64,000 nt of DNA, from the NCBI RefSeq assembly GCF_003315205.1, contig NZ_QNRR01000001.1, positions 496,001-560,000 on the forward strand. Reading direction: 5' to 3'. Position 1 is the stretch's first letter. Every line of letters starts with the position of its first letter. Below the pieces are notes generated by a model. That model was not told the origin of the DNA. It saw only the letters and a list, made by a program, of their open reading frames with translations, and searched no databases. The position numbers were made by a program, and so were the translations under genes. The stretch comes from Roseimicrobium gellanilyticum. Lineage in GTDB: Bacteria > Verrucomicrobiota > Verrucomicrobiia > Verrucomicrobiales > Verrucomicrobiaceae. Of this stretch, positions 3-25,326 are shown in pieces.

Positions 3-2951
3 CATGAACCCATCCCCGACCGGGTGGAAGCCTTTGCGGCACGCGCGGCGAATCTGGTGGCCCTCCGCACGAAGAAGAACCCGGAGAAGAAGATTGCCAT
101 CATCTACTACAACAAGGGGCTCGGGCAGGATGACCTGATGCGAGGAAGTCCCACGGGGGCATTTCTAGATGGTCCGGAGAGTCTGGTGCGTTTCCTGCCG
201 CGCTTGCAGAAGGCGGGCTATGCGATGGAAAACCTTCCCGCCACAGCCGCGGAACTGATTGAGACTTTGAAGAAGAAGGGGCGGAACATCGGGCCGTGGG
301 CTCAGGGGGATTTGGAAAAGCTCGCGGATGAAGGGGAGCCTTCTTTGATTCCTCTCAGGGCGTATCAGAAATGGTTTGATGCCCGTCTCAGTGAGGAGGC
401 TCGTAAGGCAGTGGTCGACAAGTATGGTCCACCACCTGGACGACTGATGGTGGTAAAGCGCAACGGTGAACCGCATCTGGTGATTCCGCGCATCCAGATG
501 GGGAATGTCATCCTGACGCCGCAGCCCGAACGCGGACACAAGCAGGACGACAAGCTGCTGCACTCACGTGATGTGCCGCCACCACACAGCTATCTGGCCT
601 TCTACTGGTGGCTTGAGGAGGAATTCGGGGCGGATGCCATCCTGCACTGGGGCACGCATGGATCCCTGGAACTTCTGCCAGGAAAGGAGAATGGCCTCTC
701 CAAGGATTGCTGGAGTGATGTGTGCGTCAGCAGGATGCCGGTCGTCAATCTGTGGATCACGGACAACCTTGCTGAAGCTACCGTTTCGCGTCGCCGCTCC
801 TATGCCACGCTGGTGGATCACCGGGTGCCGCCAGCACTCACGGCAGGTCTCTCCGAGGAGTTCAAGACGCTGCATGATGACATCCACAAGTTCAACACGC
901 TTGAGCCGGGATTGCTGAGGGAGGAATTCCGCAAGGGCATCAGTGAGCAAATTGTGAAGGAAAGCCTGGAACTCGTGGCGCGGGCTCCAGAGGGTAAGAA
1001 GCCCTTCCCGGATGAGGTCATCGCACGTGTCGACGATCATCTGCATCATCTTTATGATTCACAGACGCCTACGCGTCTGCACATTCTAGGGCAGCCGCCG
1101 ACGGAGCAGGAGCGACTTCCGTATCTCACTTCGATTTTGGGATTACGGTATCTCAAGCACTTGAGTGAAGCTGCGCCCTTCATCAGGAACATGGAGCATG
1201 ACAAGCAGATGCAGCGGGATGCTGCCGCACGTCTGTTGGGAGATGCATTGGAGGGGAAAGTGGAGACCGCCATGCCGCGTACGCCGGAGATTGAGAAGGA
1301 TGTGACCTTTGCCCGTGACGTGCAGGAGCGGCTCATGAATGCCGATTCGGAGATCACCGGGCTCATTCATGCGCTGGACGGTGGCTACACGCTACCGGGA
1401 CCGGGGCCGGATCCGATTCGGAATTCAGGTTCATTGCCTACGGGCAGGAATCTGTATTCACTGAATCCCGAAGAGATCCCCAATCGGGCCGCGTGGGAAG
1501 TGGGATGCAGGTTGGTGAATGATCTGTTGCGCGATCGCAAGCCAAAGAAAATTGGCATGGACCTCACCGGCATGGAGACCATGTGCGACTACGGAGTCAT
1601 GGAGGCGCAGATTCTTTTTCTGCTTGGTGTTCGTCCCGTGTGGGACCACAACAATTTGGTGAATGACGTCGAACTCATTCCGATGGATGAGCTGAAGCGT
1701 CCGCGTGTGGATGTGTTTATTGCGGTGGGAGGCGACTACAAGGAGACCTTCGGTTCCAGGATGGTGCTGCTGGATAAAGCGGTGCGACTGGCCGCAGCGG
1801 CGAAGGAAGAGCACAATCCCGTGCGTGATGCGGTGGCAGAAATGGAGACCCGATTGCATCGTCGTGGGTTCTCCAGCGTCCGGGCATCGCAGTTCTCACT
1901 GGCGCGCATCTTCGGCACGAAGCCGGGGAACATGACCGGCACGCACATCCTCTACCTTGTGCCACGCTCTGGTGTCTGGGAAAATCAAGATGAGATCACC
2001 AGCGTGTACACGGATAACATGAGCTACGTGTACAGCGGTGAAGTGTGGGGGGAGAAGGTGGATGGCCTCTATGAAGAAGCCATCCAGGGTACTGATACCA
2101 TCTTGCGCGTGTGGGCTTCCAATATGACCAGCCAGCTCACCAACCATCACTCTTACGAATATTTCGGTGGACTCAGCATGGCCGTGAAGAAGCTCACGGG
2201 TTCCACACCGCAGGCGCTGATTGCCGACGTGCGCAATCCTGATGGCGCCAGCATTCGTGATCTGGAGGAAGTGCTGGCCACCAACCTGCGTTCAGAGCTG
2301 CTCGGCAAGAAATGGCTCCAAGGCATGAAGGACCATGACTATGCCGGAGCGGGACACATCGCGGAGATGGTGAAGAATACCTTTGGCTGGTCTGTCACGC
2401 GTCCGGAGAGCGTCTCCCAGCAAACCTGGACGGACATCTATGAAGTGGTGCTGAAAGACAGGCACAAGCTTGGTCTGGAGGAATGGTTCGAGAAGGTGTC
2501 GCCCCATGCCATGCAGGAGATTGCAGCCACGCTGCTGGAGGCGGCGAGGAAGGGCGTCTGGCAGGCATCCGAGGAGCAGATTGCCGACATCACCCGTATG
2601 TATGCGGATTCCGTCGCGAGGCATGGCGACTCAGGCGGCCTCGTGAGTGGCGGCAATGTGAAGCTCGCCACCTATGCGGCCAAGACCTTGATTTCAGGGG
2701 GCGAGGCCAAAGACCAGGAGCTTGCGAAGGCGATGCAGGAAGCGCTCGCCAAATCTTCAGCAGCCGGAGCAGAAGAGAAGGTCGTGGGCCAGAAGCTGGA
2801 AAACGTGACGGAACAGAAACAAGTGGAAGAAAAGCAAGCGCCGGCAGAGGCGCAGGCAGGGAGGCCAACTTTCAACTGGAGCTACCTCGCAGGGGCCTTT
2901 GTTCTTGCGCTGCTCATCGTGGGATTCTTCAGAAAGTCAGGCTCGGTATGA
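3..2951 (+). CDS. cobN: CobN/HmuS-like metal-tetrapyrrole chelatase, 5' truncated
   Basis: The reading frame is open to the left window edge (first codon at 3-5) and 982 residues are visible. CobN/BchH-family proteins are usually 1200-1400 residues, so the N-terminal part lies outside. Family hallmarks are the HWGTHGSLELLPGK block near base 645, NLWITDNLAEA near 750 and TGRNLYSLNPEEIPNR near 1440. Unlike cytosolic CobN, this protein ends in an acidic/Gln-rich linker and a hydrophobic helix (bases ~2875-2930, followed by FRKSGSV), so the C-terminus is probably membrane-anchored. The stop overlaps the next start as ATGA. The following ExbB-like and DUF2149 genes match the organisation of the Bacteroidetes haem-uptake operon hmuYRSTUV, whose HmuS is a CobN-like protein. 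The partner and metal are inferred: haem dechelation or metal insertion are both possible. Confidence 0.85.
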   Translation, partial: HEPIPDRVEAFAARAANLVALRTKKNPEKKIAIIYYNKGLGQDDLMRGSPTGAFLDGPESLVRFLPRLQKAGYAMENLPATAAELIETLKKKGRNIGPWAQGDLEKLADEGEPSLIPLRAYQKWFDARLSEEARKAVVDKYGPPPGRLMVVKRNGEPHLVIPRIQMGNVILTPQPERGHKQDDKLLHSRDVPPPHSYLAFYWWLEEEFGADAILHWGTHGSLELLPGKENGLSKDCWSDVCVSRMPVVNLWITDNLAEATVSRRRSYATLVDHRVPPALTAGLSEEFKTLHDDIHKFNTLEPGLLREEFRKGISEQIVKESLELVARAPEGKKPFPDEVIARVDDHLHHLYDSQTPTRLHILGQPPTEQERLPYLTSILGLRYLKHLSEAAPFIRNMEHDKQMQRDAAARLLGDALEGKVETAMPRTPEIEKDVTFARDVQERLMNADSEITGLIHALDGGYTLPGPGPDPIRNSGSLPTGRNLYSLNPEEIPNRAAWEVGCRLVNDLLRDRKPKKIGMDLTGMETMCDYGVMEAQILFLLGVRPVWDHNNLVNDVELIPMDELKRPRVDVFIAVGGDYKETFGSRMVLLDKAVRLAAAAKEEHNPVRDAVAEMETRLHRRGFSSVRASQFSLARIFGTKPGNMTGTHILYLVPRSGVWENQDEITSVYTDNMSYVYSGEVWGEKVDGLYEEAIQGTDTILRVWASNMTSQLTNHHSYEYFGGLSMAVKKLTGSTPQALIADVRNPDGASIRDLEEVLATNLRSELLGKKWLQGMKDHDYAGAGHIAEMVKNTFGWSVTRPESVSQQTWTDIYEVVLKDRHKLGLEEWFEKVSPHAMQEIAATLLEAARKGVWQASEEQIADITRMYADSVARHGDSGGLVSGGNVKLATYAAKTLISGGEAKDQELAKAMQEALAKSSAAGAEEKVVGQKLENVTEQKQVEEKQAPAEAQAGRPTFNWSYLAGAFVLALLIVGFFRKSGSV

Positions 2952-3604
2952 TGGATGCAATCCAACATGCACTCTATGTGCTCTCAAATGCGCTGTTGCT
3001 TCCTACGCTCCTGGCCATTCTGATCATGGCAGCGTGGAGCATGCTGCTGCTTGGAGGGCTGGTGCGGGAGTGGTTCACAAGGCCGAGGGTCCAGCGAGTG
3101 CTGCGAGAGGCCCGGCACCTCGCGAAGCAGCAGAAGTCAGTGAAGTCCCCGGGAAAAGCAGATGGTGGAGCTCTGGTCCGGTGCTTGAGTGAGTGCACCT
3201 TAGGACTTCCGGCGAGACTTGCTGTCCTGCTCGGGCGTGATGCTCCGGAATTGTCCGACTATGCGAAGAGTCTCGATGATTTGGAAGGAGAGGTGGCCGC
3301 TTCACTGGCGCAGCTTTCCTGGCTCACACGTGTCGCGCCCATGTTGGGACTCATGGGTACGCTCATACCGCTCGGGCCAGCGCTTACCGGTCTGGCATCC
3401 GGGGATGTCGCGGTGCTCTCCAGCCATCTCGTGGTGGCCTTCACTGCCACGGTCATCGGAGTGCTCATTGGCTGCTGTTCCTTTACCATGGGGCTGGTGC
3501 GGAAGCACTGGTATCAGCATGACATGGGGGAGCTGGAATACATTTTTGCCCAAGTCTCAACGGGTGTGGCTACCCGTGGCACGCACATCGGTAAGGAGCC
3601 ATGA
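2948..3604 (+). CDS. MotA/TolQ/ExbB-family proton channel protein (HmuU-like)
   Basis: This 218-residue protein has an N-terminal hydrophobic helix (about residues 13-33) and two further helices (about residues 120-145 and 155-180). The pair of late helices, with GLMGTLIPLGPAL and VAFTATVIGVLIG, is the signature of the MotA/TolQ/ExbB channel domain. The ATG overlaps the stop of the chelatase gene and its own stop overlaps the next start (ATGA both times), so the three products are translationally coupled and probably form one complex. By family knowledge these channels use the proton-motive force to move a partner protein. The inferred role is to energise the membrane-tethered chelatase, as proposed for hmuU-type genes. 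Confidence 0.85.
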   Translation: MMDAIQHALYVLSNALLLPTLLAILIMAAWSMLLLGGLVREWFTRPRVQRVLREARHLAKQQKSVKSPGKADGGALVRCLSECTLGLPARLAVLLGRDAPELSDYAKSLDDLEGEVAASLAQLSWLTRVAPMLGLMGTLIPLGPALTGLASGDVAVLSSHLVVAFTATVIGVLIGCCSFTMGLVRKHWYQHDMGELEYIFAQVSTGVATRGTHIGKEP

Positions 3605-21676: not shown

Positions 21677-23095
21677 GTGAAGTTCAAGTGCCCCTCGTGC
21701 GGAATGAGTCTGAAAGCTGAGCCAGAAATGGCGGGCAAGGTTGTCCGCTGTCCCGGCTGCAATACGAAACTCCAGATCCCCGAGACTGCTGCGCCGAGCT
21801 CAGCCACCGGCACGATAGGTGCGCCTCCCAGCGGCGGCGGCCTTCCTCTTCCTGATGCGGCGGGTGGTCTCCCTCCCAGCGGTGCCTCCGAGCCAATGAA
21901 CTTCCAACAGGAGAAGCCGCAACGTACTGGCTGGAAGGAAGCGGACCCCACGAACCCCAATGGCTTTGTCACCTTCGGCATCGGCTTGGTGCTTACGCTG
22001 ACATGGTTCGGCATCGTGTTCCCCTTCCAGGCTCCCGATGGCAAGGACATGTCCCAGTTCACCACCATGGAGTTCGTGGCGAACGTGTTCTACAAGCACC
22101 TTGAGGTCAGCTTCATCAATACGCTCTTCTTCTTCTGGGCGATGGCCATCTTGTACCTCAAGTTCCAGAAGTTGCGTCACCAGCGCGAGGCGCTCCTCCT
22201 CGACGTGCTGCCCCAGGAGCTGGGCCAGCAGATCAATTCGCAGAACGTGGGCACCTTCATCGACCACGTGTACAACCTCCCCCACCGCCTGCGGGACAGC
22301 CTCATGGTGAATCGTATTCGCAAGGCGCTGGAACTCTTCGAAATCAAGACATCCACCTCTGAGGTGAGCAACATGATGTCCAGCCAGTCGAACATCGACG
22401 CGGCTCGTATCGGAGGCAGTTACATCATGACCCGCGCATTCCTTTGGGCGATTCCGCTCATGGGCTTCATTGGAACGGTTATCGGTCTTTCTCACGCCAT
22501 CTCGGGCATGAGCTTCCGGGACATGGGGAACGTGGATGCGATCATCTCCTCCCTCGGTGCGGTGACGAGCGGTCTGGGTACCGCGTTCGACGCTACGCTG
22601 CTGGGTCTTATCTTCGCGGTGACGCTGAATTTCCCGATGAACTCGCTCGCGAAGTCGGAAGACGAGACGCTTAACGAAATCGATGCCTTCTGCAACGAAG
22701 TGCTGCTGCCACGCCTCCACGACGGTGCTGGCGCAGGCGGAGGCGACATCGGCGCCATCGCGGATTCCGTCATCAAGGGCTTGTCCTCGACCCAGCGAGA
22801 GTTCCTTACCGACCTCAATGAACTCTCCAAGCGTATGAACGAATACGCGACCAATCTGGACCGCCGCTCGGACGCCTTCCAGGCCACGGTGCAGAAAGAA
22901 TTCATCCACAATATGACCACCATGCGTGGTGAAGTGGAGGGTGCCCTGCGCGACTCCATGAAGATGACCTCCCAGTACATCGCCGCACTCGAGACCGGCA
23001 TCCGTGGGCTCAACACCGTGCTCAAGGAGCTCGGCGAGAAGCAGATCATCATTCAGCAGACCAAGAAAAAGGGGTGGTTCAGCCGCGGCGAATAA
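21677..23095 (+). CDS. MotA/TolQ/ExbB channel protein with N-terminal zinc ribbon
   Basis: This 472-residue protein starts at GTG 21677, 8 bases after a good AAGGAG site. Residues 1-37 form an MJ0042-type zinc ribbon (CPSCGMSL and CPGCNTKL), followed by a Gly/Pro/Ala linker of about 50 residues. Four membrane segments follow: residues ~95-117, ~140-160, ~253-278 and ~296-318. The last two carry WAIPLMGFIGTVIGLSHAI and GLGTAFDATLLGLIFAV, the ExbB/TolQ channel signature. About 150 residues of cytoplasmic coiled coil follow. The two genes behind it encode ExbD-like proteins, so the operon probably makes a proton-driven inner-membrane motor. Its task is unknown. Confidence 0.85.
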   Translation: MKFKCPSCGMSLKAEPEMAGKVVRCPGCNTKLQIPETAAPSSATGTIGAPPSGGGLPLPDAAGGLPPSGASEPMNFQQEKPQRTGWKEADPTNPNGFVTFGIGLVLTLTWFGIVFPFQAPDGKDMSQFTTMEFVANVFYKHLEVSFINTLFFFWAMAILYLKFQKLRHQREALLLDVLPQELGQQINSQNVGTFIDHVYNLPHRLRDSLMVNRIRKALELFEIKTSTSEVSNMMSSQSNIDAARIGGSYIMTRAFLWAIPLMGFIGTVIGLSHAISGMSFRDMGNVDAIISSLGAVTSGLGTAFDATLLGLIFAVTLNFPMNSLAKSEDETLNEIDAFCNEVLLPRLHDGAGAGGGDIGAIADSVIKGLSSTQREFLTDLNELSKRMNEYATNLDRRSDAFQATVQKEFIHNMTTMRGEVEGALRDSMKMTSQYIAALETGIRGLNTVLKELGEKQIIIQQTKKKGWFSRGE

Positions 23096-23119
23096 CCCCC
23101 CGGACCGACGCGCCGGGGG
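23096..23119 (+). other. Short GC-rich hairpin between motor genes
   Basis: CCCCCGG (23097-23103) and CCGGGGG (23113-23119) form a 7-bp stem directly after the ExbB-like gene. There is no T run. It may tune read-through to the two ExbD-like genes, which would be needed in lower amount than the channel subunit. Confidence 0.3.
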
Positions 23120-23172
23120 AGGCTTGCCATTCCCCCCGGCTTTGAAGTACACTTGCCCCGTCTCCTTGCCCC

Positions 23173-24168
23173 ATGTCTCGCTCCCGCCACAAGAGAACCG
23201 ACGAGCTTCTCCTGATCCCGTTCCTGGACATCCTGTGTTCTTTGATCGGGATTCTGGTGCTGATCATCGTCGTGCTTTGCGTGGCCCAGTCCCAGCAGAC
23301 CAACGGCCGTACTCCGGAGGAGATCGAGCGCTCCAAGCAGTATGTGGAGGCGTTGAAGAAGGAGAAGGAAGTCTCGAAGGATGACGTGAAGCAGAAGGAG
23401 CAGCTCGCCAAGCTGGAGGAGAAGCGCAAGGAAGCTGAGGATAAACAGCAGCGCCTGGCAAAGCTCCGCAAGCTGCTCTCCACCTCTGCGGACATCCAGA
23501 AGATGAACCAGGAGCTCAGCCAGAACCTCATCAAGGAACTGGACAACCTGCTCCTGGAGATCGAGGGCCTCAGCAAGCAGGATGGCGAGCTGAAGAAAGA
23601 GATCGAGACGCTCATGGCCGAGCTCAAGGCACGCCAGGCTCCTCTGGAGAAGAAACTACCACCGGTGATGGTGCAGCCCAGCGGCTCTGGTCTTGCCCAA
23701 GGTACCAAGCTCTACTTTGTGGAAGTCACCGCGGGGAAACTCACCATCTTCTGGGACCAGCAAAAGAAGACAGTCGTAAGTGCCACGGATGAGGTCATCG
23801 CTGCAGATGTGGCCTACAACCATTTGCTGAAGGAAGTCCTCAAGATCCCGCAGTCGAAAATCATCTTCCTCATGCGTGACGACGGCATGGGCGCTTACAA
23901 CAAGGCTGCCGGCTGGGCGCAGGCCACCTACAATTACCGCGTGGACCAGATCGGCAAGCTGCTCCTCCCTGGCCGTGGCGAGGTGGACCTCAAAATGTTC
24001 CGTGACTACCTCGGCACCATGCAGCCGCCTCCAGAGGCGAAGCTGGTTCCCGCGGCAGGTGCTGCACCAGCTCCTGCGGCGGCTCCGCCTCCTGCTCCCG
24101 GAGCTCCTGCACCGGCTGCCACCCCTCCTCCTTCAGCGCCAGCGGCTGCTGCTACCAACAAAGCCTAG
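23173..24168 (+). CDS. ExbD-like membrane protein with coiled coil (first partner)
   Basis: This 331-residue protein has one N-terminal membrane helix (about residues 15-38) that carries an aspartate at its entry (Asp19 in LLIPFLDILCSLIGILVLII), as in ExbD and TolR. A long charged coiled coil (about residues 45-160), a compact domain (about 165-275) and a Pro/Ala-rich tail follow, presumably in the periplasm. It stands between the zinc-ribbon ExbB gene and a paralogue of itself. The gene-level context and Asp19 argue for a motor subunit; a general hypothetical protein is the fallback. Confidence 0.75.
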   Translation: MSRSRHKRTDELLLIPFLDILCSLIGILVLIIVVLCVAQSQQTNGRTPEEIERSKQYVEALKKEKEVSKDDVKQKEQLAKLEEKRKEAEDKQQRLAKLRKLLSTSADIQKMNQELSQNLIKELDNLLLEIEGLSKQDGELKKEIETLMAELKARQAPLEKKLPPVMVQPSGSGLAQGTKLYFVEVTAGKLTIFWDQQKKTVVSATDEVIAADVAYNHLLKEVLKIPQSKIIFLMRDDGMGAYNKAAGWAQATYNYRVDQIGKLLLPGRGEVDLKMFRDYLGTMQPPPEAKLVPAAGAAPAPAAAPPPAPGAPAPAATPPPSAPAAAATNKA

Positions 24169-24180
24169 CCCCAGTTACCC

Positions 24181-25326
24181 ATGGCAAAACGCAAAGAGCA
24201 ACACGACGAGGAGCTTCCGTTTGTGGCCCTCATGGATACCATGACGAACGTCGTGGGCGTGCTCATCATCGTGCTCGTCATGATCGGGGTCAGCCTCGCG
24301 AACTCGGTGAAGAAGGTGTTTTCCGAGCTGCCCGATGTCACGGTGACCCAGCTTGAACAGCTCCTGAAAAAGATCGCCGACAATACGCCCAAGGAGGATC
24401 CCAAGAAGATCGACGAGGAACTCAAGAAGCTGGAGCAGCAGATCAAGAAGGACGCTGAGGACCTCAAGACCATGGACCTCAGTGCAGAAAAGCAGAATGT
24501 GAAGCTCATGGACCTCGATGATTTGCAGAAGCAGCTCGAGGAACGCAAGAGGGCGCGCAATGGCAAAAAGGAACAGGTCGACAAGCTGTTGGCTGAAGTG
24601 GACAAGCTGAAGGCCCTGCTGGACACCACCCCTGTCTATCAGCCGCCACCCGCCACCATCGTGCGCCTGCCGAATCCCAAGGAGATTCCCAAGGAGGCTG
24701 TGATGCATCGCTTCCTGGCAACCGGAGGTCGCATCTACTACCTCAATGATGAGGCGTTCATGAAGTCCGTAACGGACGAAATCGACAAGAACTACAAGCA
24801 GCTCATCCACTCTGAGGTCGAGGTGAAGGACGCGAACGGTTTCGTGGTCATGGTGAAGGAGCGTGGCAAGGATGTGCCGAAGAAGAAGACGATCCTCGAT
24901 CAGCAGAAGCTCTCTGATCTCTTCGCCCGGAGGAAGATTGAGAATCGCGACCTGAAGGTGGAACTGGTGGTCACACCCACTTCGGCCCGCATTCCGATGC
25001 GCCTCGTTCCCAATCCTACAGGGGGAGAATCCACGGTGGACGTCAAGAATCCGGCCTCCGTCTTCCAGCGTCTCATGCGCAAGCTCAAGTCTGAGCCCGG
25101 CTCGGTGGTGTGGTTCTATGTCTACAAGGACTCCGTCGAGACCTACCTCGCAGCGCGTGATGTGGCAGATGCCGTGGGTGTCCCTGTCGGCTGGGAAGTG
25201 TACACGAATCCGTACTTCCAGCGGAATGTGCAGGCGTATGAGGTGAACTTCACGCCGCCGAAGCCGCAGCCTCCGCCGCCTCCTGGCGCGGTGCGCATCG
25301 CTCCGCCCAAGGCCACGGTGGACTAG
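24181..25326 (+). CDS. ExbD-like membrane protein with coiled coil (second partner)
   Basis: This 381-residue protein has the same architecture as its upstream neighbour: acidic/basic start, one helix with Asp19 (LPFVALMDTMTNVVGVLIIV), a charged coiled coil (about residues 55-145) and a C-terminal domain ending in a Pro-rich tail. The two C-terminal domains are different in sequence. It begins 12 bases after the previous stop, so they are co-translated. Together they suggest a heterodimeric ExbD-type unit. Confidence 0.75.
   Translation: MAKRKEQHDEELPFVALMDTMTNVVGVLIIVLVMIGVSLANSVKKVFSELPDVTVTQLEQLLKKIADNTPKEDPKKIDEELKKLEQQIKKDAEDLKTMDLSAEKQNVKLMDLDDLQKQLEERKRARNGKKEQVDKLLAEVDKLKALLDTTPVYQPPPATIVRLPNPKEIPKEAVMHRFLATGGRIYYLNDEAFMKSVTDEIDKNYKQLIHSEVEVKDANGFVVMVKERGKDVPKKKTILDQQKLSDLFARRKIENRDLKVELVVTPTSARIPMRLVPNPTGGESTVDVKNPASVFQRLMRKLKSEPGSVVWFYVYKDSVETYLAARDVADAVGVPVGWEVYTNPYFQRNVQAYEVNFTPPKPQPPPPPGAVRIAPPKATVD

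Follow-up and report, generated by a model that had tools for sequence, protein, structure and literature searches.

The window analysed in this work is a 64,000-nucleotide stretch of the genome of Roseimicrobium gellanilyticum (NCBI RefSeq assembly GCF_003315205.1, contig NZ_QNRR01000001.1, positions 496,001 to 560,000 of the forward strand). Three consecutive genes at window positions 21677-25326, which we call A, B1 and B2, form a cassette that a first-pass annotation, made from the letters of the DNA, had described as an ExbB-like channel with a zinc ribbon and two ExbD-like partners. The PF01618 match of A, its CPSC-x16-CPGC motif and the presence of three plus-strand genes agree with this description. 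Comparison with relatives provides strong evidence that A, B1 and B2 constitute one membrane unit. The features of the cassette are the following:

21677..23095, plus strand: gene A, channel subunit of the MotA/TolQ/ExbB family, 472 amino acids, GTG start (PF01618 match, four hydrophobic segments)
21689..21760, plus strand: zinc ribbon of A, residues 5-28, CPSC-x16-CPGC, predicted to be cytoplasmic under a putative topology with the N-terminus inside and four transmembrane (TM) helices
21965..22651, plus strand: membrane core of A, residues 97-325, with positions 100-171, 254, 273-280 and 306 diagnostic of the core types described below
22652..23092, plus strand: C-terminal tail of A, residues 326-472, predicted to be cytoplasmic, ending in a conserved KKKGWF and independent of core type
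23173..24168, plus strand: gene B1, first partner, 331 amino acids
23215..23304, plus strand: predicted helix of B1, residues 15-44, with the Asp19 codon at 23227-23229 (Ser in most relatives)
23674..24018, plus strand: periplasmic domain of B1, residues 168-282, predicted TolR/ExbD-like fold (AlphaFold model)
24181..25326, plus strand: gene B2, second partner, 381 amino acids, beginning 12 bases past the end of B1
24220..24300, plus strand: transmembrane helix of B2, residues 14-40, with the Asp19 codon at 24235-24237 and the Val15 codon (Asp in S-type sets) at 24223-24225
24661..25230, plus strand: periplasmic domain of B2, residues 161-350, predicted TolR/ExbD-like fold (AlphaFold model)

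The GTG start of A is preceded by an AAGGAG-like sequence. A scored 41.4 bits against PF01618 (MotA_ExbB; curated cut-off 22.9) over residues 214-334, which places it in this superfamily, and it remained below the NCBIfam equivalog cut-offs for tolQ (21.1 bits versus 221), MotA (16 versus 340) and exbB2 (16.2 versus 135). Relatives and genomes are referred to here by working labels (L100, G329, g12, f2 and so on), and own family and own order mean those of the window. The four-cysteine pattern is present in all relatives of A's family with a complete N-terminus, with the sole exception of L100; the channel at L100:10156-11301 is the only complete one of A's family that we found without a zinc ribbon. 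B1 and B2 each contain one hydrophobic helix (residues 20-39), and the claim of the first-pass annotation that each partner has a single helix with Asp19, as is typical of the N-terminal helix and carrier Asp of ExbD and TolR, was borne out in the window. Neither B1 nor B2 matched the ExbD/TolR profile PF02472, their locus was missing among the PF02472 matches of the genome, and when B1 and B2 were compared by sequence with solved structures, only coiled coils were matched. The spacing between the two partner genes is short (median 13.5 bases, with a 4-base overlap in some sets), which fits equal output of B1 and B2.

Alignment of the relatives revealed two types of membrane core. In the S type, B1 has Ser19, B2 has both Asp15 and Asp19, and the channel has FDTTL; in the D type, to which the window belongs, B1 has Asp19, B2 has Val15 and Asp19, and the channel has FDATL, the third letter of which is Ala306 of A (codon 22592-22594). 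Among the 59 complete sets of the own family, 38 were of the D type, 21 of the S type and none was mixed. The combination B1 Ser19, B2 Asp15 and FDTTL was found in 82 sets in total, and B1 Asp19, B2 Val15 and FDATL in 38 sets, all of them within the own family. The types also matched where the genes are not adjacent: in genome G329, which lies outside the own family, a D-type A-B1 pair and a lone D-type B2 lie on two different contigs (L236 and L237), and in Gimesia-like genomes the unlinked B2 is still type-matched to A-B1.

To follow the types through descent, markers of the three membrane parts were mapped on a tree based on the periplasmic domains and the A tail, from which every membrane part was excluded. 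The B1, B2 and A markers each required 12 changes on this membrane-free tree, and in 11 of 11 independent pairs B1 switched jointly with B2 and likewise with A (sign test, p = 0.00098). The number of type changes needed differed strongly between trees, being 1 for the A core, 11 for the A tail, 7 for the periplasmic domain of B1 and 14 for that of B2. The D/S split on the A-core tree was supported by a Shimodaira-Hasegawa-like approximate likelihood ratio test (SH-aLRT) value of 98, and a single D clade was rejected for the periplasmic domains of B2 (approximately unbiased test, p-AU 1e-50) and B1 (p-AU 2.6e-5). All 35 near-fixed differences between the types fall in the membrane parts, that is, residues 100-171, 254, 273-280 and 306 of A, 15-36 of B1 and 15-38 of B2. 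At the level of operon DNA the identity between sets of different type is a mosaic. For instance, L210 (D) and L222 (S) are 76-91% identical in the A tail and 72-89% over most of both periplasmic domains, as against 47-80% over the greater part of the A core and 50-70% where B1 and B2 begin.

Together, these sequence comparisons indicate that the membrane parts of A, B1 and B2 shifted or changed together, as a single block, on roughly a dozen occasions, across intervening stretches that did not follow. We take such block switching as strong evidence that the three membrane parts touch each other. It also bears out the earlier proposal that the three genes act as one functional unit, and joint switching is what a mixed axle within one channel predicts. 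Transfer of whole operons as the cause of all co-variation was ruled out, because the A tail and both periplasmic domains are independent of core type, and repeated convergence is made less likely by an A-core tree on which the types separate only once. The block switching may reflect recombination with selection or gene conversion between co-resident copies, two routes that are indistinguishable here.

The acids in the two helices are distributed unequally. Asp19 of B2 was invariant (142 of 142 sets); the motif search pattern for B2 demanded an Asp, and no B2 sequence failed that pattern. Residue 19 of B1 was Ser in 89 sets and Asp in 49-50 sets, meaning that about two thirds have Ser, and it changed four times on the A-core tree. 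The presence of an Asp in both helices, as read in the window, therefore holds for its lineage and not for the wider family, in which B1 mostly has Ser; by this comparison the window is atypical and displays a lineage-specific, minority state.

The cassette is widespread. A match to B2 was present in 64 of the 68 genomes of the own family and a match to B1 in 109 of the 192 genomes of the own order. A scan of GTDB genomes with the channel alignment produced at least 551 relatives of A confirmed by tblastn; the best 80 of them came nearly all from Planctomycetota, Verrucomicrobia, Lentisphaerae and Kiritimatiellae, as judged by record title, and in the majority of these 80 a zinc-ribbon A was followed by B1 and then B2. 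The order A-B1-B2 was retained in the loci read in the own family and across Planctomycetota, so that the three-gene order which the first-pass annotation proposed to look for across Planctomycetota and Verrucomicrobiota does recur. The constant neighbours that it expected to accompany this order did not: when neighbours were compared by clustering, every neighbour family was confined to at most 7 of the 70 wider loci, and an upstream glycerol-3-phosphate dehydrogenase gene was common only to the nearest genera of the own family. We conclude that the cassette stands alone. In the Gimesia-like group A and B1 are adjacent and B2 lies elsewhere in the genome, among neighbours that gave no functional clue, and B2 was present in all genomes searched. 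Regular separation of the genes had been named beforehand as evidence against a single unit. Such separation does occur in this group, but since these genomes keep all three genes, and keep them type-matched, it does not refute the idea. B1 and B2 were both kept in every genome checked, even where B2 is unlinked. The system was missing from every genome listed of genus g12 (G072-G148; own order, family f2), which indicates that it is dispensable in some lineages. A literature search for essentiality-screen data on Planctopirus yielded nothing useful.

AlphaFold models of B1 and B2 (predicted local distance difference test scores of 81.0 and 80.7) consist of a helix, a coiled coil and a C-terminal domain. 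The domain of B1 matched TolR 5by4 with a Z of 7.4 over 89 of 105 residues (Foldseek probability 0.99) and that of B2 matched the same entry with a Z of 7.9 over 87 residues; the Z values for ExbD 8pek were 6.0 and 6.9, respectively. These values are modest, and TolR or ExbD entries recur in both match lists at the expected domain. The models thus suggest that the two C-terminal domains, which had been described as different, are unlike in sequence but have a common predicted fold of the TolR/ExbD type. The B2 proteins of several genera (L050-L060) contain a periplasmic insertion of about 140 amino acids at the equivalent of residues 215-230 of the window B2, which does not have it.

The conserved three-gene set, the invariant Asp19 of B2 and the block inheritance form the sequence basis for the following proposal, to which we assign a probability of roughly 0.62: A, B1 and B2 would together build a single envelope motor, driven by ions and belonging to the MotAB/ExbBD/TolQR class, with a 5:1:1 composition. 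Five A subunits would form a channel ring in the inner membrane, and one B1 helix and one B2 helix would fill its pore as a heterodimeric axle. The main ion carrier would be Asp19 of B2, and B1 would complete the axle, in most cases with a Ser in place of the second Asp; in the lineage of the window B1 has the Asp and B2 has lost the neighbouring Asp15. Ion flow would drive a relative movement of ring and axle, which the coiled coils would pass on to the paired TolR/ExbD-like periplasmic domains. The rotary mechanism and the count of five to two are taken from what is known of related motors (PMC9389320, PMC12215075), and from these motors and the data above we infer the stoichiometry, the pairing in the axle, the rotation and a target in the periplasm or outer membrane. 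The zinc ribbon and the C-terminal tail of A probably serve either as a docking site for a cytoplasmic partner or as a clamp on the ring, a role that for the ribbon is likewise conjectural.

A tentative addition to the heterodimeric axle, rather than a replacement of it, is that the D core is driven by protons and the S core by sodium. In the sodium-driven PomA, the ion is bound by residues T158, T185 and T186, which sodium stators conserve; proton stators have Ala in place of T158 and T185 (PMC10374538). The residue preceding the conserved Thr of TM4 is Ala in the proton-driven TolQ and in D-type A and Thr in S-type A, which would fit if the x of FDxTL corresponds to T185 of PomA. The equivalent of T158 is however a Thr (GTV) in both types, and S-type cores come from lake and pond records as well as from marine ones, as judged by record titles. 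The sodium pump gene nqrB was found in 0 of 67 own-family genomes, so that neither type has a link to a sodium economy of this kind, an absence that is uninformative on sodium coupling of the cassette itself. The comparison of channel residues suggests that S-type cores may favour sodium; a full switch of coupling ion between the types appears doubtful.

Several observations weigh against the heterodimeric axle. Three combinations of B1, B2 and A residues cover nearly all sets, and the third, found in 12-13 planctomycete sets, joins B1 Asp19 to B2 Asp15 and FDTTL without changes in B2 and A; the coupling of the types is thus not absolute over the whole wider family. Moreover, block inheritance indicates mutual fit only, and the contacts of A with B1 and with B2 could belong to separate complexes or separate sites. 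In addition, many of the type-diagnostic positions of A belong to TM1-TM2 (100-171), helices that in MotA-like channels are on the outside, and one partner may therefore occupy a peripheral site. The planctomycete sets, in which B1 Asp19 accompanies both Asp15 and Asp19 of B2, also made us drop a rule of two acids per axle.

These points lead to the main rival, in which the axle is a B2 homodimer (A5:B2 2) and B1 is an accessory docked outside the ring as a TonB- or TolA-like partner, an arrangement under which the Ser of B1 needs no explanation. It would account for an Asp that is invariant in B2 and usually missing from B1 and for the positions in TM1-TM2, and a B2 that can be unlinked while A and B1 stay adjacent is what a separate A-B1 contact would lead one to expect. 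The B1 protein itself argues otherwise. Its helix contains the ExbD-like PF-L-x-I motif, no His of the SHLS type was seen in this helix, and its periplasmic domain is predicted to resemble TolR/ExbD and not TonB or TolA. Moreover, the four changes on the A-core tree place an Asp at the exact pore position of B1 in more than one lineage, and this reappearance argues that the B1 helix sits in the pore. On balance we regard the B2-only axle as unlikely. Far less probable still are two homodimeric motors sharing one channel (A5:B1 2 and A5:B2 2, co-varying since A must fit both): Asp19 in both window partners would suit them, as would the two ExbDs per ExbB of Xanthomonas and other bacteria (PMC3551730), where separate use is possible, but with Ser19 in about two thirds of B1 sequences a B1 homodimer would usually lack a carrier acid and the A5:B1 2 motor would be dead, and B1 and B2 are retained together in every genome checked, including those with an unlinked B2.

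Channels with two unlike partners are not new in kind, since AglRQS, the tolR pairs of the Planctomycetes-Verrucomicrobia-Chlamydiae (PVC) bacteria and tandem ExbDs are already known. In AglRQS, the gliding motor of Myxococcus xanthus, a single MotA/TolQ-like channel is likewise combined with two MotB/TolR-like proteins that differ from each other; according to PMC9389320 it is not known if AglQ and AglS form heterodimers or homodimers. An Asp is described for each of these two proteins, which holds for the window and not for most B1 relatives, and no zinc ribbon is described for AglRQS, in contrast to A. No Glt gliding genes were recognised near the cassette, where no profile search was aimed at them. 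Heterologous tolR pairs in PVC bacteria, within a TPR-tolQ-tolR-tolR-vWA system, were noted in 2025 (PMC12204202). By description rather than by sequence, this system shares with the cassette the phyla and the arrangement of one channel with two unlike TolR-like genes, but it has TPR and vWA neighbours, neither of which was a constant neighbour of the cassette as judged by clustering and not by TPR or vWA profiles. The section of that paper on the PVC tolR pairs makes no mention of a zinc ribbon, of Ser in place of Asp or of core switching. In the ExbB-ExbD1-ExbD2 systems of Xanthomonas and others, a channel gene is followed by two tandem ExbD-like genes (PMC3551730); these ExbDs match PF02472, unlike B1 and B2, and the cassette has no TonB on its contig. 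At C1:482687-484147, 13 kb left of the window, the same genome also has an ExbB-type gene of the classical kind with two ExbD genes in tandem behind it that match PF02472, and thus contains both kinds of two-partner motor.

ZorAB and the MotAB/TolQR motors of 5:2 composition share with the cassette a MotA_ExbB core and a single-helix partner with an Asp, and of the motor proteins with a solved structure, ZorA (8vvn) came closest to the channel alignment. Their partners are homodimeric in known structures, and the cassette has no Zorya effector genes. Membership of Zorya was rejected: the best PADLOC scores were 28.4 bits for ZorA and 18-19 bits for ZorB, partly due to coiled coil, and the NCBIfam ZorA score was 19.5 against a cut-off of 100. 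Planctomycetes also contain a sister triad without a zinc ribbon (L194:7241-12143 and L195:2659-8070), which consists of a channel, a large 'FPFLAVL' protein and a 'DSFLDIVANIVGIL' protein. The 'FPFLAVL' protein (731 or 940 amino acids) has no Asp and the 'DSFLDIVANIVGIL' protein has one, which is the same asymmetry in another family. A limited literature search found no description of a partner lacking the Asp, of matched core types, of block switching or of the zinc ribbon.

In the window, the cassette is flanked by glycerol-3-phosphate dehydrogenase and BrkB genes, and inverted repeats looked for near A-B1-B2 were not found. The first-pass annotation had noted that no TonB gene is nearby, and indeed no TonB_C match was obtained on the contig. 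Elsewhere in the window (24-3604), at a locus whose left end is cut by the window edge, a CobN/Mg-chelatase gene (PF02514, E 2e-244) leads directly into another gene of the MotA/ExbB kind (2483-3604), an arrangement which we take to resemble a haem-uptake (Hmu-type) operon.

A wider extension of the proposal, which would probably not hold in full, is that the cassette represents a class of motors with an obligately asymmetric axle, in which the S type would have one carrier Asp and use 5 ions per turn instead of 10, and in which lineages would repeatedly exchange the whole matched core (the A core with the B1 and B2 helices), keep their periplasmic domains, and thereby change gear ratio or coupling ion. 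Whether motors of the MotAB/ExbBD class can run on a heterodimeric axle is a question described as unanswered for AglRQS (PMC9389320). In the cassette, nature offers a pair of matched core types and a partner that in most cases lacks the carrier acid, together with many independent switches between the types. The roles of both axle helices thereby become directly testable by single-residue or whole-core swaps, which would provide a handle on the ion-to-turn ratio of this class of motors.

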